A stretch of DNA of 64,000 nucleotides from Mytilus galloprovincialis (Eukaryota > Mollusca > Bivalvia > Mytilida > Mytilidae). Position 1 is the stretch's first letter. Every line of letters begins with the position of its first letter. Positions 7,568 through 49,764 of this stretch are shown piece after piece. The position numbers and the translations under genes were made by a program. Below the pieces are notes generated by a model. That model was not told the DNA's origin. It was given only the letters and a program-made list of their open reading frames with translations, and ran no database searches. Where the stretch lies: NCBI RefSeq assembly GCF_965363235.1, contig NC_134842.1, positions 7,467,112-7,531,111 on the forward strand, in the 5' to 3' direction.

Positions 7568-10135
7568 TTGGGAACTGCGACATCATATGGTTGCAATGAC
7601 AAAATTGATGGTATAGGTATTCTATTTAGTCGTTCGTGTAGCTCGGTGAATGTGATGAATATTTTCAACTCTACTCCTCGACGTAGACGCAGTCATGGTC
7701 ATCGTCATTATACATCACCTACTCTGCATGGTGTCTGTTTAAATGACTTGCTGCCATTTATACAAAAGCCTTAAGGTATTCATCACATCCACACGAAATT
7801 ACACCTTTCAAAATTTCATTCTCTGTTCAATTTATATTTGGAAACCACTGTTACAAACCCTCATTCAAACCAATACAAAATTACAGCTATAATTTCAGAT
7901 ATTGCAGGTCACACACTTTTTAAACCAGTCCGCATGGGAAAAGATCTTTTCTTTATCTTTCCTTTGCCAACAAAGGTCTCGATGGCGTCAACTTCGGCAA
8001 TATCCTTCATTATAAATTAGTACTATCGAAAATATCTCCTTATCTGTACCAATCATTTCTTATACCTCTACCAAACCTATTGCAACTAAAATTTTCAGTT
8101 ACAAACACGTTTTGCAGGATCTCAATATTGACGACTTCAAGTCTAAACCTCCTAATTGCACTTGTGCTTGTTCCCAATTCACATATAAACCGGCTGGCCA
8201 CGTTATTACCGGTGACCTCAACATTGTCAATAACAATTTCCTGCGAAATGTTTAATCGAAAAGTCCGACATATCGTGAGCCTAATTGTCCATCAATTGGA
8301 AATACAGCTTCAAAATTTTGATGGATTCAGTCGAGGATTATGCCAGGCAATTGGCTAAGCGCGAGAAGGAAGACGTAAACACTTTTCCGAATGGATTAAA
8401 GCAGTGAGGTCGTTGATACAAATCACAATTCAGAAACTGAATGGGGCTATCAATGCCCATGCTACGTCAATCTTTAAAGACCCAAAAAGTTGCAAAACAC
8501 TTATCCTACCTCCATGACAAATATGTTGTTGTCCCCGCAGATAAAGCCCCACACAACATTGTTTTTGTGTGTAAAACTCATTACATTAACTGTTTGATAA
8601 ACGAATTAGGTATTGACAATTCACTAGGAAACTCAAAATATACCCTCACGACACTTACCAAACAGGAAATCCTAGATAATCATAGGTCTGTTCTATGTTC
8701 CTTTGGAATTTCAACCAAAGATGAAGAACTTAATCTTCCATCACTGTATTAGATACGTAAACTACATACGTGTCCATACAAACAACGGTATATTGTTGGG
8801 TCTTCCAAGTGCTCCACGAGACCTCTTTCTAAATTATTAACATTTATTTTATTAGCAATCAAAGACGGGCTTCAAAGTTATTGTGAAACTGCCTATTCTA
8901 GGATGTGGCGTGAATCAGATTTGGATACTTAAAAATTCCAAAGAACTTTTAGAGTACATATAATCTAACTCTGTTTCATCTTGCAATAGTGTTAAAATTT
9001 GACTTTTCTGCACTTTACACAAGTATTCAACATTCCAAACCAAAAGACAAATTGAAAGAGTTGGTATTGCTTTGTTTATTAAAAAAGAATGGCCAACGTA
9101 GATACAAGTATCTTGTCTTAGGGAGGGATAAATCCTACTTTGTAAAGTATCACTCTGATTTAAACAAAAAATTCTCTGAAACTGACATTATCAAGATGCT
9201 TGATTGCTTGATTGACAACATATTTGTTACGTTCGGAGGACGTGTTTTTCAACAGACTCAGAATTCCAATGGGAACCAAGTGTGCCCCTCTTCTGGCGGA
9301 CTTGTTTCTTTATTATTATGAGGCTGACTTCATACAGGAACTTCTTAGGAAGGAAGATAAAAAGTTAGCAATATCCTTTAACTCTACTTTCCGCTCTATA
9401 GGTATTTTCTTTCACTAAATAATTCAAAATTTGGTGACTATGTTGAACGCATCTATCCCATCGAACTAGAGATAAAGGATACAATAGATACAGTTAAGTC
9501 GGCCTCATATCTTGACTTAGATCTAGCAATTGACAATTCAATGAGGATTGGTTGAAAAAAAAAAACTTTACGACAAAAGTGATGATTTCAGCTTTCCAAT
9601 TGTGAACTTTCAATTTTTAAGTAGCAACATTCCAGCAGCACCTGCATACGGGGTATATATATCTCCCAATTGATATGATATTCCCATGCTTGCATTTCCT
9701 ATTATGATTTTCTTGAAAGAAGGTTGTTGCTCACAAGGAAGCTGAAATCATCCCTTCGTAAATTTTGCCGACGCCATCACGAGTTGGTTCACCGTTATAG
9801 AATAACCGTTTCTCAAATGATATCGAATATGTTCTTTACGTCGTAACTGCAATCCCCGTCCCTTTGTTGAATGTGACCTACCGAATTAGACTATTTACCA
9901 GATTTGTTATAACATGAACAACACGACGGGTGCCACACATGTGGAGCAGGATCTGCTTACCCTTCCACAGCACCTGAGATCACCCCCAGTTTTTGGTAGG
10001 GTTCGTGTTACTTATTCTTTAGTTTTCTTTGTTGTGTCATGTGTACTATTGTTTGTCTGTTTTTATTTTTCATTTTTAGCCATGGTGTTGTCAGTTGATT
10101 TTCGATTTATGAGTTAGACAGTCTCTCTGGTATCT
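7568..10135 (+). mobile_element. Penelope-like element, family A, degenerate
   Basis: Conceptual fragments in several frames give recognisable pieces of a PLE reverse transcriptase in the right order: an N-terminal RRRRSHGHRHYTSPTLHGV stretch (about 7675), VVVPADKAPHNIVFV (about 8525), FDFSALYTSI (about 9003), the IPMGTKCAPLLADLF region (about 9265) and YDKSDDFSFPIVNF (about 9570). A family-specific tail follows with 'cacgacgggtgcca' and 'cctgagatcaccccc', ending near 10135. The element is broken in many places. It ends only about 130 bases before the acceptor of the KCTD exon, so it lies in that gene's intron or 5' region. Confidence 0.85.
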
Positions 10136-10265
10136 TTCGTCCCTCTTTTTAATAAGTGCAATAAATTTACTACAGCTGACATGTAATTCACATGCTGCAC
10201 AATTGCATTCGAAAAAAAACTTTCTTACATAAAAAAAGATGTTAATCTGTCTTTTCTTATTACAG

Positions 10266-10991
10266 TTTCCACACATTATAAACTTAAATGTTGGAGGATT
10301 TATATTCACAACGAGACTGGCAACTATAAGGAAATATCCAGACACTATGCTTGGAGCCATGTTTAGTGGACGATACCCTATTCAGAAGGATAAAGATGGC
10401 AATTATTTCATAGACCGCGATGGAACATATTTCCGTCATCTTCTAAATTTCCTTCGTGATGAACGCTGTTTACCACCCACTGACGTTGCACCGGAAGTGA
10501 TGAAAGAAGCCATGTTTTTTGGGATCGGTCAGCTGGAAAAACGAATGAAACTTTACAAATGTTTGTTTGCCGATTTTGTTATCTGGGAATCAGTAAGAAG
10601 AAACATAGAAGACTATTATAAAATAAAGGAACATATGATAGCAATAGCATGCCAAGTCCATCTGGAAAAGGGGAAAATTCCACCTGGATTAGTTCTAATG
10701 GAAATAGTTATCGAAGAAGACGTGACGTTTCAGGACTATGAACGCCAGTACAAGAGAACGGAACAGCGTAACCAATTAATTCATAAACACTTTGTAACAG
10801 TTCGCGCAAAAACATACGAGCATGCGTTAAATGTGCGTAGCTGTTTCCACCATGACTTATCTAAAGATGGATATAAGTTCGTTATAACTTCGCTCCATCC
10901 GTCCTATCTAGATCCAGACACTGAACAATACACACATCGTCCATTGATGATATTTAATGTTATGAACCTTTTATTCAAGTTTGAATGGTAA
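10266..10991 (+). CDS. KCTD7/14-like BTB (T1) domain protein, last exon
   Basis: The exon opens after a good acceptor (pyrimidine-rich tract ending 'ttattacag' at 10265) in phase 0 and runs 241 codons to a stop. The 5' exon(s) are not visible in the window. Residues about 1-75 are a T1-type BTB domain: NLNVGGFIFTTRLATI, then DTMLGAMFSGRYPI, then FIDRDGTYFRHLLNFLRD. This pattern, and the ending RPL...FKFEW, recall KCTD7 and KCTD14, which are cytosolic proteins; KCTD7 works with Cullin-3 ubiquitin ligases and in neuronal excitability. The C-terminal part has few charged repeats and no transmembrane segment. An ATG lies upstream at 10239 but it falls in the pyrimidine tract, so a spliced start is more likely. 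The family call is firm; the exact KCTD orthologue is not. Confidence 0.85.
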   Translation, partial: FPHIINLNVGGFIFTTRLATIRKYPDTMLGAMFSGRYPIQKDKDGNYFIDRDGTYFRHLLNFLRDERCLPPTDVAPEVMKEAMFFGIGQLEKRMKLYKCLFADFVIWESVRRNIEDYYKIKEHMIAIACQVHLEKGKIPPGLVLMEIVIEEDVTFQDYERQYKRTEQRNQLIHKHFVTVRAKTYEHALNVRSCFHHDLSKDGYKFVITSLHPSYLDPDTEQYTHRPLMIFNVMNLLFKFEW

Positions 10992-13036: not shown

Positions 13037-13127
13037 ATGAAGTGGAACATGTGTACATATTATAATTGTGTAACTTTATTTCTTCTCAACATGTTATTTG
13101 TTTCTATTACCGAATCAGTAACAACAG
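13037..13127 (+). CDS. Exon 1 of the Pif-like gene: signal peptide
   Basis: ATG at 13037 opens MKWNMCTYYNCVTLFLLNML..., a short basic start followed by a hydrophobic core and a plausible cleavage region around VSITES. It ends at 'caacag|gtgagt', leaving phase 1, which matches the phase of the giant exon. The bases before the ATG read 'aactatag|gagtg', so a 5' UTR intron may end just upstream. 'tatatatt' near 12994 is an alternative TATA-like site. Confidence 0.75.
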
Positions 13128-16100
13128 GTGAGTTATATGTAAGATATTAACATACATGGGTCATTATAAAAGAAAGTGCAAATTTCGACGAGGTAATATG
13201 TGGAAACATGATGTCATTTTGTTTATGTTTAACATAGCCCCAGCTCTTTGAAGTCAAATGGTCGTTCCCTATTTATTAGATATAGGAAGATGTGGTGTGA
13301 GTGCCAATTGTTTACTATGCTACTGTAACAAAATTAGAACACCAATATACGTGCTTTATATTGCTTGGGTTGGGTACGGACTGAATTGCCAAGTGGTCTA
13401 AGGCGTTCATCATCAACACTGAGGTAACGAGTTGTTCGGACACCGTACGGGGGAGGTGTGTTCGACATCGATCTTTATTGAAAGTTTTTGTCTGGTTGTC
13501 ACCGGCTCCCTCTCCTTCGTCCGATCAATCTTAAAATTTGATACAGAAGGTGAGCCTAACTTGCCTTTAAGCAGAATTCTAGGAACTCTTTTACTGAGAC
13601 AATGTACATTAAGTTCGAAGGCCCTTGACATTTTTCTAGACTTCAAGTACATTAAACTGCATAGTTTTGTGTTCACCAGCTTATTCCTTGAGGCATATAA
13701 TATATTCATGACGACAGGTTAAAACAAATCATCTAAATTATAGTAGGATATCTTGCATTATCAATTTATTTCCACTTTCACGACTTTTTCGTTGATGTCC
13801 AATCCAGGCAAGTTTTACAACAATATTTTTTTTTATGTTTAACATAGCCCCACCCCTTTGAAGTTAAATGGTCGTTCACTAAAGGACATTTTTTGAAGTA
13901 CCATTGGTCATTCAACAGGAAATAATTGAAGATAAAACCATGGCCACATGGACAAATACGGAAAGACAAACAAAGAACACTTCACTTAAAACAACAGATT
14001 AAGCAACAAGAAACTTTCAAACCCAGGGAAAATGTGGTGACCTAGAAGTCTAAATATATGCAAAAAGGACAGAGCCTGATTTATTTATGAGTACAAGTTT
14101 TTAAGTCCAAAATGATACAAAAAGTCAAAACAAAAATGTGATTAGGAAAAATCATCAACGAAACAGAAAATATGTAGGCACTGAGAGATAAGAAATAAAT
14201 TCTCGAAGATATATACTGAAATCAATCTACCACACCTGACGCTTTATAGCGGACATCAAATTGACAACCAACGATCTGCCGATAACGAATCATTTGTAGG
14301 ACAAAATCACGGTATGATTCGGGTAGCATTTTTTTCTTTGAAACATTATGTTATGTTGTTTTTACTGAATTGTTAAACAGATATGTTTAATAAAGTAGTC
14401 CAATTTAAATGACCACATTAATTTGTAATTTCAGGTTTAATAACACGAATATGAATGCAATTAATAATACGCCTGACTAATGAATTCAAGAAACATCACG
14501 AAAAACTAATTTTTAAACTAATTTTGCTTAACATTATCATTTTCATGTAAGATATAGCTAGCCAAATATATGTCTGTCAATCAAATAATGTCCTTGTAAA
14601 ACACTGCAACTGTGAAAAACCTCAGAAATGAAATATTCCGCGAAAACAGTCTAATCGAAAAAAAAAAAAAAAAAATTTAAAATGCAGTGACGGATCCAGA
14701 TGATTTAATAGGAGGGGTACTGAATGCCAAAGAGTGGGGCGCTCATATTCGCCGGGAAGACCAAATTTCGGCACTTACCGCAAAGAACCGAAAAGCAGAC
14801 AACGATTTTCGGCCAATTTCCTGAATGAAAAAATGATATCAAAGAAATATTTCTTAGGAATTCTTTGACTGATTGCACTAAATTTCAGTTCTTTACACCT
14901 TTGAAATGTCTGCTATTCACCTATAATGAAATTGATTGGACGAATATTGTTTAAAGCTGCAGTTATTTGGTTTTCAATATATGTGTAAAAACGGCAAATA
15001 TGTGCCCCCTTTTGATAAAACATCAGGAAATTTCAAATAGCCTTCAATCTTACTTTTCAGATGATTTTTTTCCATTTTAAAGTAGAAAATCAGGAAAAAA
15101 GGTCACATGATATAATTCTGTTTATTAGCTTATATCGAACTCAAAGCTAAAAGGGAAAGTCCCTCAAAACTGACATAAAAAATGTAAATTTTTTGAGAGA
15201 GGCATACACACTCAAAATGCCTCTTTAATAAAGAATTCCTTAATAGAGAGCTGCATCTGTCCAGAGGGTTCATCCTGGTAGATCATCTTTTCAAAGATTT
15301 ATAGCTCTAATAAGCGACTCAGTTGAAGGTTAAGGTACAACTACGTCACATACCAATTATGCAGCTGGAAATACGCCCAACTTTCCCCAGTCGTGATTCA
15401 TCATAGTTCAAATGTTCATGAGCAGCACGTCTGTATAATAGAAACTTTAGTACTTTAGATGATCCATGCGTTTTGATACTGTTCTTTATGATAAAATTTA
15501 TTTGTTTGAGTGCAATGTTTAATGAATTTGTTGCTGGAATATCTTTATTATTGGTTGTGTTGTCTTTCTTCTTTAGATATTGATTTATAATTGCCCCTTT
15601 GATATCTTCTTATATTTCTTTTCTATTTTTTTTGTAATTCGGTTGGAATTGTTGAAAAGATAGTAATACCCCCATTTAATTAAAGTCTTTATGACAATGT
15701 TTCCTTTTCGGATAAAGTAACTACAGAATGTAAAACAAAAATAATAGTCTTTTCTAATTATTTATCGATTTATGAATTTCGAACAGCGATATACTACTGT
15801 TGCCTTTACTAATCATTATTTTTCGGGTCGTGCCACGGAATTTCAAAACATTGCTTTAGAAAACATGTACCACATACATCAAGTAATTAGCACATATTTA
15901 TTTACTTTGCTGATTACTAATTAGTTAATGTAACACACCTGAACACTAGATGTGTCTTCTCTGACATGTCTTCAGGATAACTTGACACTAATTACCAAAG
16001 GAATGTTGAACCTCCATTTATCATCTAGAAATCCAACTATCATGACAGGAAACTTTTTAAATGGATTGTTTCTGATTTTTTCCTGCATCTTCGTTTTCTT

Positions 16101-19100
16101 CGTAGTTACGAGTCGGACTCTGTATTGAGAGTACTTGATTCGAGCGCATCTCAAACAGACAGGATACCAAAATTTAATGATATTTACAGTTAAATCACTA
16201 ATGTAGAAAGTATTTAAAACTATGGACGTTAGTTCTGCTGTCTAGATTGGACATTAGTCATGCTGTCTAGTTGAGATGTGGCTGGGTTCAGGACTTCGTA
16301 TTCTTTGTAGCCTTTAACTTTTTATAATGCTTCGGCCTCCACTTCATATTCTAGCTTTGTGTTCTATTCTCTTGTCCGTTCTTAATCTGGTTTTTCTAAA
16401 TGTGTGGCTACCCTTGGTTCTACTGTCTCCAGATGTGTAGTTTTTGTTGTATCAATGGTAATTCAAGAATGTTGGATCTGTTTTAACCTTCTGTTATATA
16501 GTGGTTCTCACAGAAAGTCATCTAAAACAACTGATAAAGTTGTGTTGGTCGGAGCGAAAGACTGATTTTTGAAGTTTGTTGTACCTGTGCCCTAAGTTAG
16601 GGGAGTGTTGGGCTGCCGCGAATATGCGCTTAACCCAGCCACATTCTGTATTGTCATGCCCCAAGTCAGGTGCATATATTTCAGTTTTATATTGTGTTGC
16701 TGTATGTCGTATTTGATTTTCGCTTATTGTTTTGTAGACAAAAAAGGCCGGTTATTGAGTAAGTCTTTAACATCTGTCAATATGGGATCCTTAATATTCT
16801 TCAACTTTTGGCTTTATAAATATTTTTATACATGTTATTGAGCGTCACTAATGAGTCTTATGTAGACGAAACACGCGTCTTGCGTACTAAATTGTAATCC
16901 TGGTACCTTTGATAACTAATTATAGCTTGCTATGCGGTATGACATTTGGTAATTGTAGAAGGCCGTTGTGTGACCAGAAGATGCTCAATTCCAATAAAGG
17001 CAACAGTAGTATACCGCTGTTCAAAACTCATAAATCCATGGACAAAAAACAAAATCGGGTTAACAAACTAAAACCGAGAGAAACGCATCAAATATAAGAG
17101 GAGGACAACGACACAACATTAAAATGTGACACACACAGAAACGGACTAAGCATTAGACAAAATCCTATGAGAATAAAAATATTTTTTTTTTATTGGATAG
17201 TTTTCTTTTTTCTTTATTGGATAGTTTTCAATCATGTTGAACGATGTTTCGACTACTATCCATCATACTATAATATAGCTCACACCTGTTAACGTTTTTT
17301 TTTGTGACTACATATACATGCAACTTATATTTCTACAGAACAAATGTGCATATAAATAGAAAAAAATCAAGGTTATTAAAGATGTCTTTCAAGAATTAAA
17401 GTTTGTCAAATGATCTTCGATCAAACTTCAAACTTACAATAGATTTATCAAATTGCTACAGTATCAACAGACATACATATTCTAAATTTGAATTTGTCAT
17501 TCAGAAGAAAAAAAAAACAAAAATAATATAAAATTCAAATTAGGATAAGGATTAAGAATGAGATCTTAATATGAAATACATTAATAGAAACCAACACTAT
17601 TGCGACGCAACATATTAAATAAGATGAAAATGTATTTCAGGTTTGTTTTACATGTTAACAATTTACTAGTAGAATAATGTTGCATTCCTAAACGTTCTTG
17701 CATTGTGTAATTTTTCATATAAAGGCGGTAGTCTGTCATATATTAGCAGCAAAACAATGCCGAGGAATACTAATTAATAATATGACCTTTTACAAAAAAG
17801 CCGAATAAGCAATTGGTACTGTAATTAAGATGTTCTTACTATACATGTGATATTCCATATCTATCGCGCCCAATGCGAATTAAGATGATGTCCTTTAGTC
17901 CGTTATCGCGACGAAAGAGGCATATTACATATTGTTGATACAAAATAATATTGCCCTAAAAAGATAAATCGGCTTATTGCCATAGAATGCCGAAAATTCA
18001 TAAGCTAGTGCTATGTTGCTAACTATAAAACCAGGTTTAATCGACTATTGTCTACATAAGAAAGTCAGAAATATGACAGTTGTTATACAATTGTATTATG
18101 TGTTTGAACTTTTGATCTTGCCATTTACTTTTTGAATTTTCTCCTCGGAGTTCAGTATTTTTGTGAATTATTGTATCTCATTTTATCTATAAACTTTATA
18201 TTATTTCAGACACAGTAAATTCATCTACCTCAGAAAAAGCAAATCCATTTTCATTAGAAGAATCATCATTAGACACATTTTCTGATGTAAATAGTTCATC
18301 GTTATCAGTCAATAACAACACATTTTTAAATGAATCAAATTCTATCAACGAACTAGAATCCAATTTAACATTGAGTAGAAACTTGTCTGTGATTGGTAGT
18401 GAAATTTCAAATTCAAGTATAAATGACAATGAAACCATCACAGATGATGTTGTCGTAAAAACAAAACAGCTAACAGCTGAAGATATAACATCACGAGGTA
18501 CACTAACAAATGAAGATATACCGTCACGAAGTGAACTAACACAAGAAACATCGACTTTATGTAAAGACTGTCCGAATGAACCACCTGTACCAGTGCAACA
18601 ACCTCCACCTTATCCGTCCGACGAAATGTTATCAAATCAGAATCAGGATATGAAGATTATTAAAGAAACACCGGAATTCACTCTAAACAAACATTTTCAA
18701 CCACGGGCAGGAAGAATTCCACAATCATGGATAGATAGTAAACCTGATATCGTTGAAGCTACAGCAAGACCCAAACAGAGGTCTACTACCATAAAACCAA
18801 TAATACAGCCTATTTTTGACCCAGAACTGCCTCCTCCACCTCCGGGGAGTTTTGCTTTTGGAAAGAAGGAAATGCTGTCTATTCCTGATAGTCAATCTTT
18901 AGGTTCAGATTTGACAGCTCCAATTACAACTGAAGATTTTACACAAGTTAAAAGTCAGCAACCAGCTGATTTTGAATTCCCGCCACAGCCAGAAGTGGAG
19001 TTACCTGGAAATTTTCAACCATTCAAAATTACTGAAACTGCATCCGACCTTGAATCTCAACCTATTTTAGAAACAGTTTCAATGGACCAAAAATTGACGT

Positions 19101-22100
19101 CACTTGATATCAAACAACCTTTAAATCAGTTGGACGAAGAACCCCCTCCTCCACCCCCTCATTTTAGTAGACCACCAACGATGAAATTTAAACAAGATAG
19201 AGAACGATCCCAACCGGTTCAGAGTGTACAAAATGTGCTAACCACATCACCACCGGAAGTTCTACAACCAAGAGGTCAACAATTAAATGCTGCCGCTTCC
19301 GAACAGCCATTCGCACCGGACCAACACATATCAGAAATTGATAAACAAATAATCGAATCAAAGTCTGACCAAATGTCTTCAGATACCATTGAAAAACAAA
19401 CGGCACCACTGAACCCTGAAACATTACACATAAAACCGAAAATAGCATTAGAATCTGACAACACTGGTGAGGATCAACAAAGGTCTTTTACACCAGATCA
19501 GTTGAAATCTGAGAGTCAACAGCTAACAAATATTAGTGAAGCTGACTATATGCAAACGAATGAGACGACAGTTTTGGGGTCATTACTAGATGAAAAACAA
19601 AATATGACAGATCAGATTAACCTTCAAAATGAAAATATGCCAACAACATCATTACTAGATCATATGCCGTCTATTAATCAAGATGTAGAATCAGACTTTA
19701 CAACAAATATAACTGCAGAGTTTGACGCAAGAAGCACTGCAGAGTTTGACGCAAACGAAACAGCAGAGTTTGTATCAAATGACACGACAGAGGTTAAATC
19801 AAGAAACACTTCAGAGTTTATTGCATTTAGCCCTACAGAGTTTGTAGCAAATGACACGGCAGAGTTTACATCAGATAGCATTGATGAAAGAACAGTACCA
19901 ATTTCAGAAATAAATCAAATATCAGAAACAATAAATAACATAAATAATACAATGAACGAAGAAATAGCATTACCACGAACAGATCAATTCCAAAATGAAC
20001 AGCAACTAAACAGTAGTATGGATTACATAAATCAGATATCTTTAGATACATTGCAGCCTGACGAATGGTATATATCAGAAAATCGAACCTTAATGGAAAC
20101 GCTAGAACAAAATATAACCGGAAGTGAAAAAACCGCTGAAATTAAAGCATTGAATATATCTTTGTTATCGGAACAAATGTCCATTGAAGGTCAACTTAAT
20201 CTTTCGGTAGATCAGAAACTAATTCCACAAGTCTTAGAAAATATTATCCCAGAAGACCAGATATCAGCAGATATTGAAGGTGCACTCGACAAGAAGAAAA
20301 TCATTGGTACTTCAGTTTTGGATCAGAATATAATCAAAAACGGCTCATTACCAATGGAATCAGAAACGCTAGATCAAATATCTATACGGATCCAAAATGC
20401 TTCCAACGCTGTTGAACTGAAAATTGAGAAACATATAGAAGAATCTGTTTCTGGACTTCAGCAATTGTCAGATTCAAACCTAACACAGTTTTTAAAAGAC
20501 AATGAGAAAGTAAAAACTACAATGGAGAATAAAATTCCAACTGAAATTCAAACTATCACTGATACAAACGGAACGACTTCCATGTTTGATCAGTTACATT
20601 CTGAGGGCCAGCTAGATGAATCACTTATACTGGGAGATGCAACTGATCAGCAACTGGAACCTTCTTTATCAACAGTAGAAGACAACGAGCTGTTGGAAAT
20701 TTTGAAAACAGCTGAGGATTTTAGTGCAGTTCCACAATCAGAAAGCCAACATTCACAAAACACTACCATAAACGATGGAAATCAAACTCAATCAGTTTTT
20801 GAGCAATTACCATCTGATGTTGAACAATCAGTGGGTACCAGTACAACTTTAGTTGAGATTACAACATTAACACCGGAACCAGAACTATCTGTGGGTACCA
20901 GTAAAACTGAAGTTGAGAGTACAACATTAACACCGGATCCAGTACTATCTATGTCAACCAGTATAACTGAAGTTATGATGAAGACAGAGGACATTGAAAT
21001 TACAACATTAACTCCGGATCCAGTACTCAATATAGGTAAAGAGCCAAAAGGTATCGACCATACAATGACAGGAACCTTGCCCCTTAATACAACTCCCTCA
21101 TTCGAGGTAACTACGAGTACACAGCAGCCACCACGGCCAGGTCAAATGCATTCTGAACTTCAAGAATCGTCTGCAACTGATAGACAACAACAGAGACCTG
21201 CCGACATTTCTAATTTGAATGAAAATCAAACTTTCCCAGACAACACTCAACAACGTCAGGATCAGAAAAACAAAGAAGAAATAAATGTGGAGACAGATAT
21301 ACCTCCCCCACCACCGAGACGAAGAACAGAATTAGTAGAGAAAGAAAGAAAAAATTTACCACCATCATTGAATGTATTGGAAGAGAACAGAAGGAAAGGT
21401 TTCCAACAAAATTCCGACCAACCACTACAGAGCCCCGAGTTATCCTCTGAATTACCGCCGCCACCACCAGGTTTCAAACAGGAAACTAAACACATTTTGA
21501 AGGACAAACCTATGACCTTGCTTAAAGAAACGGGCTTGTTGAAATCACAACAGGATGAAACGGATATTGCAAGTCAAGCCAAATATTCTGCATTATTTAA
21601 TCGAAACTCGCCATATTACCAGTCAATGTGGAAAATTAACACAAATCAGCCGTCAACAAAAATAAAACCGCAGACAACTCTTAATTCTATTGACCAGAGA
21701 CAATCGAGTAATAGTGCGGTCAGAAAAATGATAAATACGATTGAACAGGTTAGAACACGACCTAAGTCGGTTGATTCTTTAACTTTTTTTACACCAGGTG
21801 TGGTGAGAACTCAAACCCACCAGAATACTGATCGCAATAGTAATGTGAAAAGTCAACGTTCGGTACCACCTCTTTCAAAACAAATTAATAGTCAACAAAG
21901 TGCCGGTGTCGGCATACCACATGCAGGTTATACACCAGGAGTTCCTTTTATTCAGAATCACTTTTTACGTCGTAAACGTTGGAATGAGAGTAATCTACCA
22001 ATGGACATTGCATTTAAAACTGCAGTTCCAAAACAAGAACAATCTTATAACATACACGACAGGATGGCAGGAGGAAAAAAATATATAGAAGAAAAAGTGT

Positions 22101-25100
22101 ATTCTAATATTCCAATAAAGAAGAGATATTCGCTGAATGATCTGCGCATAAGCAAACTTAACAGACTAAATGAACTTAATAGATATTCAGATGTTAAACA
22201 TTCAAAGCATTTACAGAACAACATTGACATTAATAAAAATAGTTATAATTCACATCAAACTACACCTCGAACTAAACATCAGATAAAGGATATTATTTTA
22301 CATGGGAAAGTTCAACAATTCAAAAAATCAAATAGTAAGGTACATGCAAATGTTCTGCAGAATCAGAATAAGAATGACGCCCCACCGCCGATCATTTTAC
22401 GAACAGCAGATTCAACTGTGTTCAAGGTCTCGTATACACCACCTCCACCACCGCCACGAAAACTGACAACAGTGGCTCCACCGGAAACGATGAGCAAACC
22501 ACTTCCGGAAAACAAGCATATTTCTCCAAAACAATTCAAATCGAAGAAAATAACCTCCAACAATGTGACAAAAACCTCAGCATCTACGGAGTCTAACACG
22601 AAATCAACAGTATCGGTAATTGGAAATTCTTCACCAGAAATAAACCCCTCTTACACAAGAGAACTCTCAAATGCTTCTGGTAAGTTATGTTTATTATAGT
22701 TACGTAACTAACATAACAGTATGGTATTCACTGTGACGATATTAACTAAAACCATTAGATAAGCTACATATATTAATTTGGAATTTTTGGGAAAAGCAAC
22801 ACTATTGAATACAAAATAAAATACTTTTTTGTTTATGGAATATCAACAGCAACGAATGTATTTATGTGCTAATCACTATCATTAAAGATGTCACTGGCTT
22901 TTAGATCTTCTTAGTGATTATTTGGAAATATGAAATGCACATAATAAACAAAGGTATCATCAGCTCGGTAGATCTCAGTATTATGATTTGCAACAAACCA
23001 TCATCAAATCGTCTTTTGTAAATTTATAAATTGTTAAGAAAACCAAAGTTTTAAATCATTCAGCCAAGATGTAACTGAATATATTTGGCTATTATATTTG
23101 TTCACAAAGCTCTTCAACTGTTTGTGTTCTTACAAATCCAATGGCTTTCAAATTTTGCTTGAGCGTTCCTCCAGAAAAATACATTTTGTCATGTTTTATA
23201 ATCGTTTAAATTTAGATACTGACATTCAATGTGACAGTAATGTGATCTAGCAATGTGAGTTTTGTCCTGTGTGCCTGATTGAAAATACAAATAAAAAAAT
23301 ATTTTTATTGTACAATGTATTTTTCTTCCTCAGAAACGTGTGACAACTGTACGTACGTAAGTGATTTCTGTTACTTGAGAGAACCTACCAACTGTAACCG
23401 ATTTATAGTATGTTATAAACAAGGACACAAACTAAGAGCCACAGAAAAAGAGTGTTCATTTGGTCTGTTCTGGAGTCAAAGTAACCTAGCATGCACACAA
23501 CCATCCAGAGCACAGTGTCAAATAGGTACATTTTTTTTTTTAAATATGATTTTCAATAATTATACAATTCTACGGAGACTGATTTGAATTAGCAACCCTC
23601 AAATTGTATACGTAAATGAAGGATAAAATCTTCTTAGACTTTAGCACTGAATAAACTCAACATAGAAATCAGGTTTATAAGTGTGTACACCGGACGCACA
23701 TTTCGTCAACAAAAGACTCATCAGTGACGCTCGATTGAAAATTTGAATTGGATAGTGAAAGAAAACCCGTTATTTAAGAGAGGCAATTGCTTTTCTTGTC
23801 TGTTCTTGTAAATACGTTGTTTTAATCTTTTGGTGGCGATTGGAAAAAAAGAGGGTTCAGATCTGAAAAAAAAATAAATTATCAAACCTGTGCATGTCCT
23901 ATATCTAGAACCGTATCAGGATTGTTTTTTGATTCTGGAAAATATGGTCTTGGTGGTTTTTGCTTAATTTATGCACCCTCCTTTTTAGATCTTGATAAAC
24001 AAACAACATTCTTGTTGAAGACTTATATTAATGATACTCGTTATTTTTGTTTTTTGTTGTTGCTAAATTGTTCTTATGGTCGTTTATCCAAGACAGCAAT
24101 TTATTTATGTTAACTGTATTTAGTATGTTCATATATCAACAGGTTTTACTTATTTCATATTTTGCCGATTTTTTCAGATTGTCTCATTTACTTATTCAGT
24201 TACACTGAATTTAAATACACTTTTGATTTATAGATCCCTGTAGGACGAAAGGTGTTTACTTATTTCATATTTTGCCGATTTTTTCAGATTGTCTCATTTA
24301 CTTATTCAGTTACACTGAATTTAAATACACTTTTGATTTATAGATCCCTGTAGGACGAAAGGTGTTTACTTATTTCATATTTTGCCGATTTTTTCAGATT
24401 GTCTCATTTACTTATTCAGTTACACTGAATTTAAATACACTTTTGATTTATAGATCCCTGTAGGACGAAAGGTGTTTACTTATTTCATATTTTGCCGATT
24501 TTTTCAGATTGTCTCATTTACTTATTCAGTTACACTGAATTTAAATACACTTTTGATTTATAGATCCCTGTAGGACGAAAGGTGTTTACTTATTTCATAT
24601 TTTGCCGATTTTTTCAGATTGTCTCATTTACTTATTCAGTTACACTGAATTTAAATACACTTTTGATTTATAGATCCCTGTAGGACGAAAGGTGTCAGAT
24701 CTCACCCATATATCGGTAAATGTCGTGCATACTGGACATGTCGAAGACGTCGTTCTGATGCAAGATGTTGTCCGAATGGATATGCATATGGCGGTGGAAG
24801 AAACACGTGTGTTCCAAATAAAGACTGTAAAACAAATTGCATTACAAAAATCCCCGAAGTTCTTAATGGTATGTTTCATAATATTTTTGAATTTGGGAAA
24901 TGTTATGTTTATCGGATATTTACATTGAATGTGAGAAAATTTAATGACTGTTAACGTTATTACAGTTTACATTATTATTTGTCCATATATAAATAATATG
25001 TAAAACACGATTCACAGCTATCAACACACGTTTTTGGATTTTGAAAGCATTACAACTATTAGCTAAATAACCTACTAGCGACAAAGTGATAAATAAACTC

Positions 25101-28100
25101 ATCATAGATACAAGGACTAAATTTTTATATATACGCCAGACGCGAGTTTCGTCTATAACAGACTCGTCAGTGACGCTCGAATCCAAAAAAGTTAAAAAAA
25201 AAAATAAGTACGAAGTTGAAGTGCACTGAGATCCAATATTCATAAACGCAATACTAAAAAAGTATATAAGATAAAGGTATACTTAAGAATAAGTTTTTAG
25301 AAACTCTGAAATAAAATCTTCAACTAGACGCATGAATATAGAAAATGAATAGAAAACGCATGACAGAATTCGTCTCAGTCAATGTTTCATCAAATTACAG
25401 AACCAAACATCTACGATAAAAACGAATCTTTTCAAAAGATACGAGATCCGATACACAGCGTATATTCTCTTATACAATAGAAAGGTTGCATTTCAATAGT
25501 TTGCTTTAAAATTTGTTGCATTTTTTTGTCACGCTGATATTAGCTAATTAATTTAATATCTCCAGTCTTAGTCCGAATCTGCCGAGTGTTTTGGAAAATT
25601 ATAGTACACAGTGTAAGGCCAAAGCAACATTTTTCATTATTAAAAACATTTTCATTAAAGATTTTAAATTTTGAAATATTTATTACGGGTCTATCTGTTT
25701 ATGGGCTAGCGACAACCGGGGATATTGTTCTTTTTAACGACGTGCGTTAGCCAATGAAAATCCGAGAAATATACTTAGTCGAGGATAATTAAGTAGGCAC
25801 TTACATCAAGTTCTGAATGAGGATAACATGCTTTATTTTGTGTTTACAGTCCTATTCATTATATGAAAATTGTATGTTATCTGTCTGCTAAAAGCGTGTT
25901 CCCCCGAATAGCAATAGTTTATAACGCATTGTTTTATAGGCAAAATTTTCCATATTTGGTCTGGAGAACGATTAACTGAAAGAAAAGCGGATACAATGGA
26001 CCAAATTAATGAGATTTTTTAGAATAGTTTTTTATAAAATAAGCTATTGTTTTCAATTTCAGTGTGCCCTCTCAGAAAAGTTTCTGACTCCCCATTTGAG
26101 TATACAGATGGTGGGATGGTTCGTTCCTGTGCTCCCGGTACTCGGTTCGAAGAATCTATGTGCGCTTGTATTAGGAGCAATGTTGGTAACAGACCAGTAG
26201 AAAAGAAGCAAACACTTTTCGGTTATTATATATAAATAATTCCTATTCTGATTTGATTCATAACTGATTTTCTTAAATTGTTTGTTTATACATTTGCAAA
26301 TTTTTAAGAAACTATGGTTTCATCTACCTCAGGCAAAGCTGACTTTTAATGAATTTGTGTATTTTACTATGTCTTTTTTGTAATACATCCATGGCTTTCA
26401 CAGATCTTCACATATTCGGGTTTGAGCTTTACTGATGAAGGTTAACCTAGAAAAGCGATTGGGACGCATGAAATTGATAACATGGTCATGTTGAATTCAT
26501 TTTTAAGGGTAGTGAACTTCAACCCTGAATCGAAATAACCGATTACCAAGACATATTTATATTGATATGTCCTTAACATTTAAGGAATGACTGTTTTATT
26601 TTTTCTGTCTATGAAGAAATAACATAAAAAATTTGGTGCACACTGAATAACTCGCGTAGCGGGTTATTTCACAGTGTGCACCACATTTTTTATGTTTTTT
26701 CGAATAAACAGAAAAAATATTACAGTCATTTCTTATAATTTAATTCTAAATTCCATTTTAAGGTGGTACCCAACACTTCAACTAAAATTAATTTGGTTCG
26801 TTTAATTTTCTTGAAATTTTGACAAAGTACTTACTTTGACCCTTTGACAAAAATATAAAAAAAATTAAATAATAAAAATTTGAACCAACCGTTTTATCAG
26901 AAAAATTACACTGGTTATATAGCAGTTTGACAAACGCATATTTTGATCATTGAGAAGCTTAATATTCCCTTAACAACACAACGTAATTAAAACGTTCAGT
27001 TGATTTTACAGAGTTATCTCCCTGTAGTGTTAGGTACCACCTTAAACCGTAGAAAACCATGAAAAAACGCTGATGACTTCACGGTCACATGACTAAATTA
27101 TGTCTATGGGCTCATAACAAAATAACGTCAGCCAATCAGAAGTCGCGTTACATCCAAAATTAAATTATTTAATTATACAGAATATAATCGCATGTAATTA
27201 TAACATAATACATACAATTCCAAGAATTATTTAAAATTATGTGCAAATCCTTTCTATCTAATATTCATTGCATTCTGAATATTTGAAATTTTATTGTTAT
27301 TTTCATGCTTATGATTTGAACCAATAGCATTTTGATGTTTTTATGTTCATTAATAGTATTATATTATCTTTATATTATGTTATTTGCATGCATTTATCAT
27401 AAAGAAACAAATTAACATCATTATCCATTGTAGATCAACCTTTTCAATGTAAGCCTGCCATTAGTCTAGATTTTAGCGGATCCTCAAAAAATGCTTTCGA
27501 GGACAAATCCGGACAAAGTCAATCTATTGGTGTATCTAATGTCCTTCAGACGATTAAAAAGCAAGCAATGTTTAATGGACGTGGAAGCCTAAAACTGTGG
27601 CGTTTTTCGAATGTAGAACTTGGTCCTGAATTTGCCTTGCGTTTTAAGTTTTATGCACATGGAAGATCGCATCGTTCTGAAACATTGTTATCAAATTGTA
27701 TTGGGAAGAAGAAGGCTGCATTTGACATTAGACTTGAAACTGAAGTTTTAGAGATAGTGTTTACTGTGAAGACATCTGAAAGTCCTGAATCATATATAAG
27801 AATATTTTACAAGGTACAGTTAATAGATTTAGTTCATAATTCACAATTTTAGAAGTTTTAAAAAAATCGATTTGCATACATTCGTAGTGTAGTACTTTGG
27901 AAATCAAGGAGTTTTGTTTTACATATGTATATTTTTTTTATATATTATATATGCTGATGTTAGTCTTTGTCTCTTTTTTTGCCATCGCGTTGTGTGTATA
28001 TTTTGGGAGTTAGAGTGACACTTTGGTATCTTTCACCTTTCTTTGTAATATAATAAGTCGAATGGAAGAAGAAATTATTTAAAACAGATACGATTGGATG

Positions 28101-29923
28101 GAAGAGAGCAGCTTCTCATCAGTGTCATAGATAGCGTTAGACAAAGTTTTGAACATCTCTTTAACCATGCAATCTAAGTAGTGTGTTTTTAACACACTAC
28201 TTAGATTGCATGTCTAAACAAAATACAACATTATTTTAATATTGATTGTTTTTATTGCAGCCACACCAGTGGAACGAAGTTATTCTTCGATATGATGGTG
28301 CCAGTTTCTCAGCTGCTCTTGGCAAAGTCTCAAAAACGATTTATGTGGAAGGTAAATCGACTTTTTTTTTTATTTTGAAGCATTTCCAAACATCGTCATT
28401 ATTTTATCCAAAAACAAAAAGATATATGTACTTAACTGCAACTGTTAAGTATTTAAAAAAAATTACAAAATATTTCTTAATTATAAAAGATTTGCTTGTG
28501 TATGTTTTTATCGTGATAACCTCTAAACATGTTTGTTAACCATTAACTAGTCGTCTCTGTCCCTTTTCAGGTGTAATACCTACAAAACATGCTGCTATAT
28601 CTATTGGTGGCTGTGATCAAGACGATGGATTTATTGGATACATGGATGATGTAAGCCAAACTATTTATCAATTATTTAACTCTAATTCGTTTGTGGATCT
28701 ACAAGTACCCAACTTTTGTGTCCGCCCAACATGAAAATTCTGTATATTTGTTAGACTCAGATCGACGTCCGGTCTCTAATCGACGTCCGTACCTCAAATC
28801 GACGTCCAAATTATTCACAAATTGACGTCCAATATTTTGATACTCTATTCCATAAAGATTTTTTCAACCCGAAATAGGTAACATGTATGCTAATATTTAT
28901 CTTGATAAAAGTTAGTCAAATTAATCTACATTGTAGTATGTCATTCCCATACATATCAATAATTGACATGCGTGTATGTGTAAGTGAATGAAAAGAAACC
29001 AAACGACATAAAGAGGGCACTGGCCAGTCTTTAACAATACACAAAATAAAGAAGTACAGCCAATTGTTTTGTGAGTATCATATTTTAAACTCTGTTTAAA
29101 CCTGGAGTGAAAAATATATAGAGAAGCTAAAAATTGGACGTCGATTACAGAAGCCTAAAATTGGCCGTCGATTAGAGAAGCATAACATTGGCCGTCGATT
29201 TGGAATGTTATTTTATTGTGACGTCAGATTTGGACGTCGATTTCAGGAACGGACGTCGATTAGAGACCGGACGTCGATCTGAGTCTTACATATATATGCA
29301 ATTCGTGCGTACCCGCCTTTTGGATGGCTCGCAAACTGTTGAATTTGTTCTGTTTTCATGTTCATTATAATAGTGGTCTTTGTTAATAACCCTTACAGTA
29401 AGCATGTTTGGTATTGATGCATTTGTTTAATATTGAACAGATATATCATCTTAAGGAGGGGTATTTGCAAAAAAATACCATTCGAGAGAATGTTCCCGAG
29501 CCGTAAGGCGAGAGAAATTTATTCTCAAAACTGGTATTTTTCGCAAATACCCCTCAAGAACATGCTATATCTGTTTAATTACACCGAATATTAACGTTCA
29601 AAAACGCATTGATGATCGTGACGTAACAAGCGTCAAGTCGGATATAGTATTTTTGGCAAATATCATGGCAAAGAGGGTAAAAAAGGCATATCCTTTTTGC
29701 ATATACCCCGTCGGCGTTAAAAAATGAACGATATTCATTTGATAATAGTAAACTGGTGAAAAATACACTGCCTATCAAAACCCAGGATTCTTGCATAAGG
29801 TGTAATTAATAACTATATATGTATTTGAGATATGGTCTTCATATAATTTTTGCATATTTTTTTCAGGTGATAATATACAACGGCTGCATACCAGAAGATG
29901 TAAGAGGTCTTGTGTTTGAATAA
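13037..29923 (+). CDS. Pif/BMSP-like secreted chitin-binding and laminin-G protein, nine exons
   Basis: I assembled this gene from GT-AG junctions whose phases all agree: 13037-13127, 18210-22679, 23334-23525, 24674-24868, 26063-26185, 27434-27813, 28261-28351, 28571-28650 and 29867-29923. The product is about 1892 residues: signal peptide (1-27 or so); a long disordered region (31-1520); three cysteine-rich modules of peritrophin/chitin-binding type 2 character (about 1521-1690); and a laminin-G-like domain (1691-1892). Secreted molluscan proteins with this tail (Pif, BMSP and relatives) bind chitin and help organise the shell matrix. Those proteins also carry VWA domains, and I see none here. 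Introns 1-5 are phase 1, the classic arrangement for shuffled extracellular modules. AATAAA signals lie at the stop (29919) and at 30106. The exon model is strong; a role in biomineralisation is inferred from architecture only. Confidence 0.82.
13385..13510 (+). repeat. Possible tRNA-derived SINE fragment
   Basis: 'ttgccaagtggtctaaggcg' at about 13387 is very close to the D-arm/A-box of tRNA-Leu or tRNA-Ser genes, and 'tgtgttcgacatcg' about 65 bases later is a weak B-box. The intervening stems do not fold as a good tRNA, so a decayed SINE head is more likely than a tRNA gene. Confidence 0.35.
15765..15835 (-). repeat. R3 interspersed repeat fragment
   Basis: 'tttatgaatttcgaacagcg' followed by 'atatactactgttgccttt' is the reverse complement of the R3 phrase at 16.99 and 41.78 kb. 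Confidence 0.6.
16835..16915 (-). repeat. R1 short interspersed repeat
   Basis: 'gagcgtcactaatgagtctt' and 'tagacgaaacacgcgt' are the reverse complement of the R1 core seen complete at 25.1, 33.3, 38.9 and 62.4 kb. Confidence 0.7.
16985..17130 (+). repeat. R3 interspersed repeat
   Basis: 'aaaggcaacagtagtatacc' and 'aaaccgagagaaacgcatca' match the copy at 41.78-41.90 kb. Confidence 0.65.
18035..18170 (-). repeat. R4 interspersed repeat copy
   Basis: 'accaggtttaatcgac', 'atatgacagttgttat' and 'cctcggagttcagtattttt' match other R4 copies. It ends about 40 bases before the acceptor of the giant exon, so it sits in the branch-point neighbourhood. Confidence 0.65.
18210..22679 (+). CDS. Exon 2 of the Pif-like gene: 4.47-kb disordered region
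   Basis: One uninterrupted frame of about 1490 codons between a 'ttatttcag' acceptor and a 'ctg|gtaagt' donor. Residues run from D31 to about 1520. The composition is Ser, Thr, Glu, Gln, Asn and Pro rich with many N-glycosylation sequons and almost no cysteine. It carries at least five proline runs (PPPPP or longer) at about residues 238, 342, 1062, 1113 and 1440; seven 8-residue repeats of the type TAEFDANE (532-587, bases 19712-19879); and three repeats of about 20 residues ending TTLTPDPVL (from 904). The last 400 residues are Lys/Arg rich. RRKR at 1284-1287 (bases 21968-21979) fits a furin-type site; Pif is known to be cut into two chains, though at its own site. I recognise no folded domain in this exon. 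Confidence 0.88.
22680..23333 (+). other. Intron 2 of the Pif-like gene
   Basis: Nothing besides splice sites was recognised in this 654-base intron. Confidence 0.6.
23334..23525 (+). CDS. Exon 3 of the Pif-like gene: chitin-binding type 2 module
   Basis: Frame continues in phase 1. About 64 residues with CDNC, then six cysteines in the peritrophin-A order: ...DFC-x6-C (PTNC)-x5-C (FIVC)...KEC...LAC...AQC, with aromatic FGLFW before the fifth. This is the pattern of CBM14, a small disulfide-held chitin-binding fold. This is the best conserved of the three modules. It ends 'caaatag|gtaca'. Confidence 0.83.
23640..23745 (+). repeat. R1 short interspersed repeat in intron 3
   Basis: Degenerate copy with 'aagactcatcagtgacgctcga'. 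The rest of intron 3 up to the tandem array shows nothing recognisable. Confidence 0.65.
24145..24694 (+). repeat. 110-bp tandem array (5 copies) carrying an acceptor site
   Basis: Five units of exactly 110 bases that I read as identical. Each holds a 'gattttttcag' pyrimidine tract, 'ttgatttatag' and then the first 21 bases of exon 4. The acceptor AG therefore occurs at 24233, 24343, 24453, 24563 and 24673; only the last is followed by the whole exon. Use of an earlier one runs in frame into a TAG at the next unit's acceptor. Identity between copies means a very recent expansion or an assembly effect. Confidence 0.95.
24674..24868 (+). CDS. Exon 4 of the Pif-like gene: second cysteine-rich module
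   Basis: Phase-1 exon of 65 codons: DPCRTKGVRSHPYIGKCRAY at the start, WTCRRRRSDARCCPNGYAY in the middle, then CVPNKDC and CKTNC-type cysteines. The DPC...YIGKCRAYWTC...CCPNG...C layout is that of the second chitin-binding-like repeat in Pif/BMSP-type shell proteins as I remember them. The very basic RRRR stretch is unusual. It ends 'cttaatg|gtatg'. Confidence 0.78.
25085..25265 (+). repeat. R1 short interspersed repeat in intron 4
   Basis: Near-complete copy: 'aactcatcatagatacaagg', 'cgccagacgcgagtttcgtc', 'gactcgtcagtgacgctcga' and 'agtacgaagttgaagtgca'. The remaining intron sequence 25270-26062 shows nothing recognisable. Confidence 0.8.
26063..26185 (+). CDS. Exon 5 of the Pif-like gene: third short cysteine-rich module
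   Basis: A 41-codon phase-1 exon giving VCPLRK..., GGMVRSCAPGTRF and MCACI. Four cysteines remain, so this is a half module. CAPGT.F...C.C is the motif that closes this type of repeat. It links the chitin-binding part to the LamG domain. It ends 'aatgttg|gtaac'. Confidence 0.72.
26583..26734. repeat. Foldback element, arms about 73 bp
   Basis: Left arm 26583-26655 pairs with 26659-26734 around 'gcgtagc'. Shared phrases are 'aacataaaaaat', 'ggtgcacactg' and 'tttttctgt'. The arms are imperfect, so not fresh. It lies in intron 5. Confidence 0.75.
26760..27043. mobile_element. 284-bp MITE with terminal inverted repeats
   Basis: Begins 'aaggtggtacccaacact' and ends with its near reverse complement 'agtgttaggtaccacctt'. 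It has no coding capacity, so it is a non-autonomous DNA transposon. It is inserted next to the foldback element in intron 5. No clear target-site duplication could be fixed because the flanks are A/T runs. Confidence 0.7.
27434..27813 (+). CDS. Exon 6 of the Pif-like gene: first half of the LamG domain
   Basis: Opens after 'catt gtag' and runs 127 codons. CKPAISLDFSG, then an FEDKSGQ stretch, GRGSLKLWRFSNVELGPEF, LRFKFYAHG and LLSNC follow the strand pattern of a laminin-G/concanavalin-like sandwich (LamG3 type). Such domains bind glycans or matrix partners in extracellular proteins. It ends in phase 0 at 'tacaag|gtac'. Confidence 0.75.
28166..28212. repeat. Perfect 22-bp palindrome in intron 6
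   Basis: 'catgcaatctaagtagtgtg' plus 'tt' is followed after three T by its exact reverse complement. It would form a tight hairpin in DNA or in the intron RNA. It starts 95 bases before the exon 7 acceptor. Confidence 0.85.
28261..28351 (+). CDS. Exon 7 of the Pif-like gene: LamG middle
   Basis: Phase 0 in, phase 1 out. It encodes HQWNEVILRYDGASFSAALG and the strand after it, the W..V.L.YDG core typical of LamG domains. Confidence 0.75.
28571..28650 (+). CDS. Exon 8 of the Pif-like gene: LamG late strands
   Basis: Phase 1 in, phase 0 out. It encodes ...AAISIGGCDQDDGFIGYMDD, the LamG signature G.C....GF.GYMDD, directly before a GTAAGC donor. Confidence 0.78.
28741..29300. mobile_element. 560-bp TIR element built of GACGTC sub-repeats
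   Basis: Terminal inverted repeats of about 80-95 bases: the left end 28741-28835 holds four 'tcgacgtcc'-like units ('agatcgacgtccgg', 'taatcgacgtccgt', 'aaatcgacgtcc', 'aattgacgtcc') and the right end repeats them inverted, with further units near 29140, 29165 and 29195. The bases ATTC flank both ends (28737-28740 and 29301-29304), a likely 4-bp target-site duplication. There is no coding capacity. It lies in intron 8 of the Pif-like gene. Superfamily not identified. Confidence 0.8.
29438..29573. repeat. Foldback repeat, arms about 43 bp
   Basis: 'cagatatatcatcttaagga' to 'aaaataccat' (29438-29481) is inversely repeated at 29531-29573, with 'aggggtatttgc' as the best matching core. It lies in intron 8. 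Confidence 0.7.
29867..29923 (+). CDS. Exon 9 of the Pif-like gene: C-terminus
   Basis: Eighteen codons and a stop, VIIYNGCIPEDVRGLVFE, in frame after 'tttttttcag'. With exon 8 this gives MDDVIIYNG.C, the usual end of a LamG domain, with the last disulfide cysteine. AATAAA overlaps the stop. Confidence 0.72.
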   Translation: MIIYNGCIPEDVRGLVFE

Positions 29924-33294: not shown

Positions 33295-33515
33295 ATAAAC
33301 TCATCGTACCAGGATTGAAATTTTGTATTTGAGTTAGACGCGCGTTCCGTCTACAAAGGACGCATTAGCGACGTTCGAATAATAAAAAAAAAAAACAACC
33401 GTTAAAAAGGACAAACAAAGTACGGAATTGAAGAGCATTGAGGACCTAAAATTCCTGAATGTTTTTTTCTAAATACAGCTAAGTTAATTTATGCCTGAGG
33501 TAGAAATATATATCG
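33295..33515 (+). repeat. R1 short interspersed repeat
   Basis: 'aactcatcgtaccaggattg', 'gttagacgcgcgttccgtct', 'gcgacgttcgaa', an A run, then 'gtacggaattgaagagcatt' and 'tatgcctgaggtag'. It directly abuts the PLE that follows. Confidence 0.8.
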
Positions 33516-33519
33516 TCCC

Positions 33520-49750: not shown

Positions 49751-49764
49751 CATAGTCGCATAAT

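Follow-up and report, generated by a model that had tools for sequence, protein, structure and literature searches.

We found that a gene of the mussel Mytilus galloprovincialis is, judging from its homologous exons for chitin-binding (CB) and laminin-G (LG) modules (CB1-CB2-CB3-LG) and from shared intron phases, a member of the Pif/BMSP family by descent. It has a giant low-complexity block in place of the VWA domain. An earlier note on this DNA had proposed both a Pif/BMSP-like protein and the missing VWA, and both proposals hold up. We think it likely that the gene, which is of the "LamG3" type, encodes a secreted chitin-matrix protein of the shell or periostracum. We infer secretion from a signal-peptide-like exon; use in the shell or periostracum is plausible.

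The gene lies in a 64-kb stretch of contig NC_134842.1, the whole of which was analyzed and which we will call the window. Nine exons with GT-AG borders throughout (13037-29923) make up 5,679 nt free of internal stops, and their phases are consistent, as claimed earlier, so that a single open frame of 1,892 residues results (Table 1). Exon 1 encodes a hydrophobic core (FLLNMLFVSI, mean hydropathy 2.33), its donor matches the consensus at 9/9 positions, and a TATA-like TATATAT stands 5' of it at 12995. A further exon 5' of 13037 may exist. (A sigma-70-type scan is meaningless for this DNA.) At the other end, an AATAAA at 30106, 3' of exon 9, could act as a poly(A) signal.

Table 1. Exons and other features of the gene, in window coordinates.
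Feature	Position	Strand	Description
Exon 1	13037..13127	+	start codon and signal-peptide-like segment (MKWNMCTYYNCVTLFLLNMLFVSITESVTT); phase 1 at end
Exon 2	18210..22679	+	1,490-residue low-complexity region; symmetric, phase 1-1
Furin-like site RRKR	21968..21979	+	residues 1284-1287; from motif and charge calculation, coordinates from the exon table
Exon 3	23334..23525	+	CB module CB1 (CBM_14); phase 1-1
110-bp tandem array	24141..24695	+	5.1 copies, 99%
Exon 4	24674..24868	+	CB module CB2; phase 1-1
Exon 5	26063..26185	+	CB-like module CB3, half-size; phase 1-1
Exon 6	27434..27813	+	N-terminal part of LG (LGa); phase 1 at start, 0 at end
Exon 7	28261..28351	+	LG continued (LGb, ...WNEVILRYDG...)
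Exon 8	28571..28650	+	LG continued (LGc, ...ISIGGCDQDDGFIGYMDD)
Exon 9	29867..29923	+	LG end and stop codon TAA

The earlier note had listed three CB-type modules and a LamG domain. CB1 matches Pfam's CBM_14 above the Pfam cut-off (E = 2.5e-5, residues 1526-1582), and exons homologous to the whole series occur in paralogues, but the third module is half-size and only CB-like. The LG match to Laminin_G_3 (E = 0.044 for the full-length protein and 0.0014 for its LG part) is below Pfam's curated cut-off, so we assign this domain by its homology with the paralogues' LG exons instead. Among 11 LG sequences compared with Laminin_G_3 at E up to 1, this gene's alone matched; the other ten are half domains. 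A longer LG from locus B matched with E = 0.0077, and a longer one from locus C did not match. Searches of solved structures by sequence found nothing significant for LG or CB. Single-sequence folds were poor (pLDDT of 58 for CB1 and 36 for LG exon 6), and the first Foldseek match of the CB1 fold falls short of significance (human chitotriosidase, E = 3.1).

Homologous CB or LG exons were followed at 16 further loci of the host genome, with largely identical intron phases. Homologues of the CB1 and CB2 exons are present in 12/16 loci each and those of the CB3 and LGa exons in 13/16 each (LGa is matched only partially in K, L, and N). Frames similar to LGb, with W..(x)..YDG, are found in loci B, C, D, and I, with E below 1e-10 in B only and of about 0.1 in D and I; a frame similar to LGc is found in B (E = 0.05). 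The CB1 donor lies 7 nt past the last cysteine, in phase 1, in 12/12 genes read, and the CB2 acceptor is at the same spot, in phase 1, in 13/13. The LG exon's donor has phase 0 in 10/14 genes (it is uncalled in F1 and K and has a different phase in L and N). Within the CB-LG module, the gene's exon borders and phases are thus as in VWA-bearing members. The family may be larger, since the search scored 50 candidates. Weak CB/LG matches lie at C1:40.50M, C3:26.67M, C4:85.04M, C6:99.47M, C10:84.93M, C13:69.73M, and C14:68.16M, and another, A3 (C5:33.865M), has a CB match with E = 0.76 and a VWA about 8 kb 5' of it.

We also considered that this could be a VWA-less chitin-matrix protein of some structure other than the shell, such as the gut peritrophic matrix, mucus, byssus, or egg coat. 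In favor of this, CBM_14 goes by the name peritrophin-A as well, and, according to the part of PMC10543319 on which we draw, high expression in the shell-forming mantle is lacking for many Pif and LamG3 genes. However, the series CB-CB-CB-like-LG and the intron phases are those of the Pif/BMSP family, which counts several shell proteins among its members (PMC11291548), and we consider a non-shell role rather unlikely.

Alternatively, exon 2 might belong to one gene and exons 3-9 to another. Intron 2 does contain AATAAA hexamers (at 22815, 22943, and 23290), but intron 1 contains 11 AATAAA/ATTAAA hexamers, as is usual for AT-rich DNA. Furthermore, the exon 2 donor matches 8/9 consensus positions and its phase fits exon 3, and locus B has a low-complexity exon whose phase-1 donor lies about 0.6 kb 5' of CB1; the order of signal peptide, low-complexity region, and CB is common to B, J, and M. 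Two genes seem very unlikely. A decaying gene seems just as improbable. The 110-bp array duplicates the acceptor of exon 4 together with that exon's initial 22 nt, and exon 4 continues from the last copy only; the earlier acceptors, taken as the start of exon 4, each run into stops. A fresh array might have created four decoy acceptors and spoiled splicing, and 4/5 acceptor copies do run into stops, but 9/9 exons are open and the array's last acceptor has stayed intact.

We searched the window with a profile whose seeds were three VWAs from the host genome. No VWA turned up among open frames of at least 30 residues, and none within the 18 kb that precede exon 2. The earlier note had named a VWA exon in intron 1 or upstream as what would tell against it; we looked for one there and elsewhere in the window and found none. 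As a positive control, the same profile found the VWAs of five paralogous loci, of which three had supplied the seeds and the other two, K and D, whose VWAs are split, had not. It is very unlikely that a VWA exon is used from farther off (beyond the window's start, or from an alternative promoter), which would make this a usual Pif/BMSP protein: an acceptor-like TATAG that ends at 13028, shortly before the start codon, would allow for an exon farther upstream, but a signal-peptide-like segment directly follows the start codon, the 18 kb searched hold no VWA, a different gene (with a BTB_2 domain, on the same strand) occupies 10233-10988, and the nearest VWA on contig C5, among the best 150 of 257 candidates, is at about 13.29 Mb, almost 6 Mb away.

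The gene is not alone in this. Across the 17 CB-LG loci (including this one), a VWA lies 5' of the CB/LG exons in 9 and none was found in 8; at four of these 8, the absence is firm. Four of the 8 (this gene, B, J, and M) have a signal peptide directly next to a low-complexity region of their own. The earlier suggestion that this gene may be a new branch is not supported. A single VWA-less branch of this gene (W) with B, J, M, F2, and G is rejected by the AU test (p = 5e-5), and so is W+B+J+M (p = 4.8e-8 with 17 taxa, 4e-4 with 14 taxa, and 0.002 on CB alone), although not on LG alone (p = 0.07). For B+J+M, neither CB alone (p = 0.055) nor LG alone (p = 0.15) leads to rejection, and W+B+J is rejected in no set (p = 0.14-0.43). 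Inner nodes of the CB/LG tree are mostly weak. These tests suggest that VWA-less genes sit in more than one place of the tree rather than on one branch, which is not significant on LG alone.

The low-complexity region is encoded by an open frame whose length has a chance of about 10^-44 given the base composition; the other two forward frames of exon 2 have 103 and 140 stops. No homologue of it was found in the host genome except itself (13 candidates scored). It has five runs of 5 or 6 prolines and 34 N-glycosylation sequons (versus 20.8 ± 3.9 in 1,000 shuffles), and its last part, residues 1288-1520, is basic (pI 10.0); in these respects, the earlier description was accurate. Its label "mucin-like" is loose: serine, threonine, and proline make up 10.8, 9.6, and 8.2% (about 29% together), tandem arrays in exon 2 are few (four short ones), and the long Pro/Thr/Ser tandem repeats of mucins are missing. 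The 1,490 residues are probably disordered by the charge-hydropathy rule, which is a weak test here because the Cys-rich CB stretch also fell just on the disordered side. The region is acidic up to RRKR and basic beyond it, which puts this furin-like motif on the border between an acidic N-terminal part (net -90) and a chitin-binding part that is basic (net +30). RRKR is not a family trait: in frames of at least 150 residues from nine loci, it is absent from the other low-complexity frames, and the only other RXKR is in locus M, beyond the LG exon's donor. Cleavage is therefore without support from the paralogues.

How does this gene compare with described proteins? It has the CBM_14 and then CBM_14-like modules of Pif/BMSP proteins, followed, by homology, by an LG domain or its two partial halves, but neither the PfuPif-clade VWA (PMC11291548) nor the tandem VWAs of BMSP. 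The M. galloprovincialis BMSP likewise combines CB and LG but has four VWA domains; a four-VWA gene on host contig 14 appears to be its counterpart. In the part of PMC10543319 (Bai et al. 2023) on which we draw, proteins with CB and LG but no VWA are named LamG3, repeated VWA loss from a Pif ancestor in molluscs is inferred, and such VWA-less proteins are among oyster shell proteins, including the chalky-layer LamG3 (Pif-f) of Ostreidae. (Elsewhere in the literature, "LamG3" denotes a protein that has one VWA; PMC9635652.) This gene has the same combination, with LG by homology, and adds the 1,490-residue region before the CBs, in a comparison by description rather than by alignment. It would probably have gone uncounted there, as that classification begins from a Pfam cut-off of 1e-5, which its E values (2.5e-5 and 0.044) miss. 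In Perna viridis, another mytilid, a table of nacre proteins includes a "mucin-2-like" protein (Unigene51584) with ChtBD2 and LamG and no VWA listed (PMC6641155). It too is compared by description, and it may be partial because it is known from a 2,135-nt transcript and two matched peptides. Since both had already been described, this gene is not a new kind of protein, and the novelty that the earlier note saw in a VWA-less member falls away.

In Pif of Pinctada fucata (Pif97/Pif80), which also has CB and LG, a dibasic RMKR parts the chitin-binding from a highly charged fragment (PMC11291548). RRKR, between an acidic part and a basic chitin-binding one, may be the equivalent. However, Pif has a VWA and its chitin-binding part is N-terminal, whereas this gene has the reverse order and yielded no VWA. 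PifN has a long low-complexity region between VWA and CB, and PifS1 has one before the VWA, but both keep the VWA (PMC11291548); loss of the VWA exon from either would yield the layout of this gene.

We propose that the CB modules probably anchor the protein to chitin fibrils and that the LG module probably attaches it to glycans or to other molecules of the matrix, as their families suggest. The low-complexity region would probably be a flexible, glycosylated polyelectrolyte brush, whose acidic first 1,257 residues could retain calcium ions or water and whose remainder is basic, like the CB modules. At RRKR, the chain may be cleaved by a furin-type protease of the secretory pathway; of the two fragments, the acidic one would have about 140 kDa and the basic chitin-binding one about 68 kDa (before glycosylation). 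The two could stay paired by charge, as is thought for Pif 80 and Pif 97, in the reversed order. Most likely, the VWA disappeared when a symmetric exon dropped out (the VWA exon of locus C has phase 1-1), which leaves the reading frame intact. That the protein is a reversed, VWA-free Pif, cut at RRKR and held together by charge instead of VWA, in a family that, in this mussel lineage, repeatedly lost or gained VWAs and private giant disordered exons through phase 1-1 exons, is a tentative proposal that we consider possible but doubtful.

Symmetric exons offer a simple and testable route for VWA loss. If the VWA-less loci (8 of 17, four of them firmly) encode shell proteins, then complex formation through the VWA, as reported for Pif 97, cannot hold across the family, and surveys seeded with the VWA overlook a sizeable share of its members; the Pif/BMSP classification in PMC11291548 begins from the VWA domain. 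And if VWAs and giant disordered exons did come and go repeatedly in this lineage, a good part of the family would be invisible to any survey that starts from the VWA.

The window gene, W, is a real gene and a new entry in the VWA-less (LamG3) kind of Pif/BMSP relative. The earlier note read it well: with borders set from the sequence, its start and end are identical, and the nine exons join with consistent phases into 5,679 nt, encoding 1,892 residues before the stop codon, with GT-AG at every intron. A signal-peptide-like core comes directly after the start codon. Exon 2, described earlier as a giant low-complexity region (LCR) within one exon, has 1,490 open codons; given the exon's base composition, the chance of this is about 10^-44. 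It does contain PPPPP runs (five stretches of five or six prolines) and many N-glycosylation sequons (34, versus 20.8 ± 3.9 in 1,000 shuffles). Low complexity is seen in a quarter of the region's 25-residue windows, versus 5% in the remainder of the protein. The charge-hydropathy rule places the LCR among disordered sequences; the cysteine-rich chitin-binding stretch also falls just on the disordered side, so this rule is a weak test. The chitin-binding (CB) part matches Pfam's CBM_14 (E = 2.5e-5). For the proposed LamG domain, Laminin_G_3 matches below Pfam's cut-off (E = 0.044 with the whole protein, or 0.0014 with the laminin-G (LG) part alone).

An exon encoding VWA might have been hidden in intron 1 or upstream. 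An iterated profile seeded with three VWAs from the host genome (L033, L034, and L038) found no VWA in the 64 kb window among open frames of at least 30 residues. (The best score, E = 0.25, was a chance match within the upstream gene.) The same profile found VWAs in the paralogous loci L024, L033, L034, L036, and L038; L024 and L036, which were not seeds, both have split VWAs.

Other features of the window are tabulated below. Temptin is a mollusc pheromone component. The 110-bp array in W looks very recent; its four decoy acceptors run into stops, and it could affect splicing or vary between haplotypes.

Features of the window other than the exons of W
Feature	Position	Strand	Evidence or description
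37-bp satellite, 23 copies	5027-5884		Several open frames; no sign of a gene
Retroelement-like frames (by eye)	7924-9321, 33499-35058, 49764-50063		No Pfam match in those scanned
Upstream gene, BTB_2 domain	10233-10988	+ (as W)	E 2.3e-19
110-bp tandem array, 5.1 copies	24141-24695		99% identical; copies the exon-4 splice acceptor and first 22 nt
28-nt hairpin, intron 6	28160-28218		93% complementary
Foldback element, intron 8	28736-29303		76-nt arms, 91% complementary, spacing 416 nt; rich in ATCGACGTCC-type repeats
Temptin_C open frame	36650-36940	-	E 1.8e-9
Reverse transcriptase frame	52626-53456	+	RVT_1 E 1.7e-27
Frame following RVT_1 frame	53496-54386	+	No Pfam match

Across the host genome (1,384,861,812 bases), the LCR matches only itself, while the CB-LG part matches a family. 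The hits obtained in this genome lie on contigs C1-C14 (73-116 Mb where the size is shown) and C33. The family's size is a lower bound (50 candidates were scored with the CB-LG part). We followed 16 loci besides the window, or 17 in total. Single-exon profiles found the first and second CB exons in 13 loci each, the third in 14, and the first LG exon in 14 (three partial); these profiles were iterated three times, so their E-values are in-sample, and a module's absence may reflect the extent of the fetched sequence. CB modules of loci B, E, and N exceed Pfam's CBM_14 cut-off. Among 11 LG sequences, Laminin_G_3 matches only that of W, the sole full-length one. A longer version of B's LG scores 0.0077, and that of C has no match. 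Exon borders agree as well. The first CB exon's donor lies 7 nt past the last cysteine, in phase 1, in 12 of 12 readable genes; the second's acceptor is in phase 1 at an identical position in 13 of 13; and 10 of 14 genes have a phase-0 donor at the LG exon (L and N have a different phase, and F1 and K have no donor called). Because this agreement is common to VWA-bearing and VWA-less genes, W is a family member by descent.

At 9 of the 17 loci, a VWA on the same strand precedes the CB or LG exons (C, D, H, K, and N from fetched sequence; F1, I, L, and A2 by coordinates). A BMSP-like gene with four VWAs lies on C14. In the family gene on contig 10 (L038:8-931, minus strand), the stretch between VWA and CB is rich in serine (30%) and aspartate (18%), with a net charge of -55, and is a candidate acidic mineral-binding region. 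We found no VWA at the other eight loci (W, B, J, M, E, F2, G, and A1), as judged, for all but W, from about 8-12 kb of fetched DNA each and the best 150 of 257 candidates in the genome-wide VWA search. In W, B, J, and M, the lack is firm because the LCR comes right after a signal peptide, which was recognised by eye. In E, F2, and G, a low-complexity frame precedes the CBs, with no first exon found in the fetched DNA, and no N-terminus was found there for A1. A second VWA-less gene (L032:3522-8999, continuing into L020; C5:34.8435M, plus strand) has a signal peptide and, in an exon of about 2,000 codons, acidic, threonine-rich low-complexity sequence that contains tandem repeats. About 20 kb away and convergent with it is a PifN-like VWA-bearing gene with poly-threonine between VWA and CB.

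The earlier note suggested that W might represent a new branch. But a clade of W, B, J, M, F2, and G is rejected (AU test, p = 5e-5), and so is W+B+J+M (p = 4.8e-8); W+B+J is not (p = 0.19). The CB+LG tree has weak inner nodes, yet B+J is firm (99/100). When the 14 taxa covering at least half of the columns were used, the p values of W+B+J+M were 4e-4 with all modules, 0.002 with CB, and 0.07 with LG (not rejected); W groups with E in the best trees for CB and for all modules, but not for LG alone. Because a single VWA-less clade is rejected, two or more losses of VWA, or its exchange, are probable. In C, VWA is encoded by a phase 1-1 exon, and the low-complexity and CB exons of W are likewise phase 1-1, so a VWA exon could drop out in frame, which may be how VWA was lost.

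In published work, the family is defined by VWA (Shimizu et al. 2024, PMC11291548), and VWA-less CB+LG proteins are named LamG3 and reported from lophotrochozoans and amphioxus and among oyster shell proteins, with repeated loss of VWA or LG inferred in molluscs (Bai et al. 2023, PMC10543319). (Elsewhere, "LamG3" is a protein with one VWA; PMC9635652.) The survey of Bai et al. included Mytilus coruscus; W's Pfam E-values (2.5e-5 and 0.044) miss its starting threshold of 1e-5. ChtBD2 and LamG are listed for a "mucin-2-like" nacre protein of Perna viridis (PMC6641155), and the nacre of M. galloprovincialis yielded a chitin-binding protein that is 34% identical to BMSP (PMC4517812). In the literature covered, mostly open-access main text and including PMC7747718 and PMC8194122, no VWA-less member has so long an LCR or a furin site within one; this coverage does not establish novelty.

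Residues 31-1287 of W have a net charge of -90, a pI of 4.5, and 30 sequons, and end in RRKR (1284-1287); residues 1288-1892, with the three CBs and LG, have a net charge of +30 and a pI of 9.3. In P. fucata, cleavage of Pif at RMKR yields Pif 97, the N-terminal fragment that binds chitin, and Pif 80, the charged fragment from the C-terminus (PMC11291548). W resembles Pif in reversed order and without VWA, and we infer that it may be a two-fragment matrix protein. Because RXKR is absent from the other low-complexity frames examined, and their net charges differ widely (B -143, J +89 and +36, E +19, F2 +23, G +21, M +9), the acidic/basic layout with RRKR seems private to W. As predicted from sequence, the points of interest would be that VWA is missing repeatedly in a single genome and that W has a reversed acidic/basic layout.
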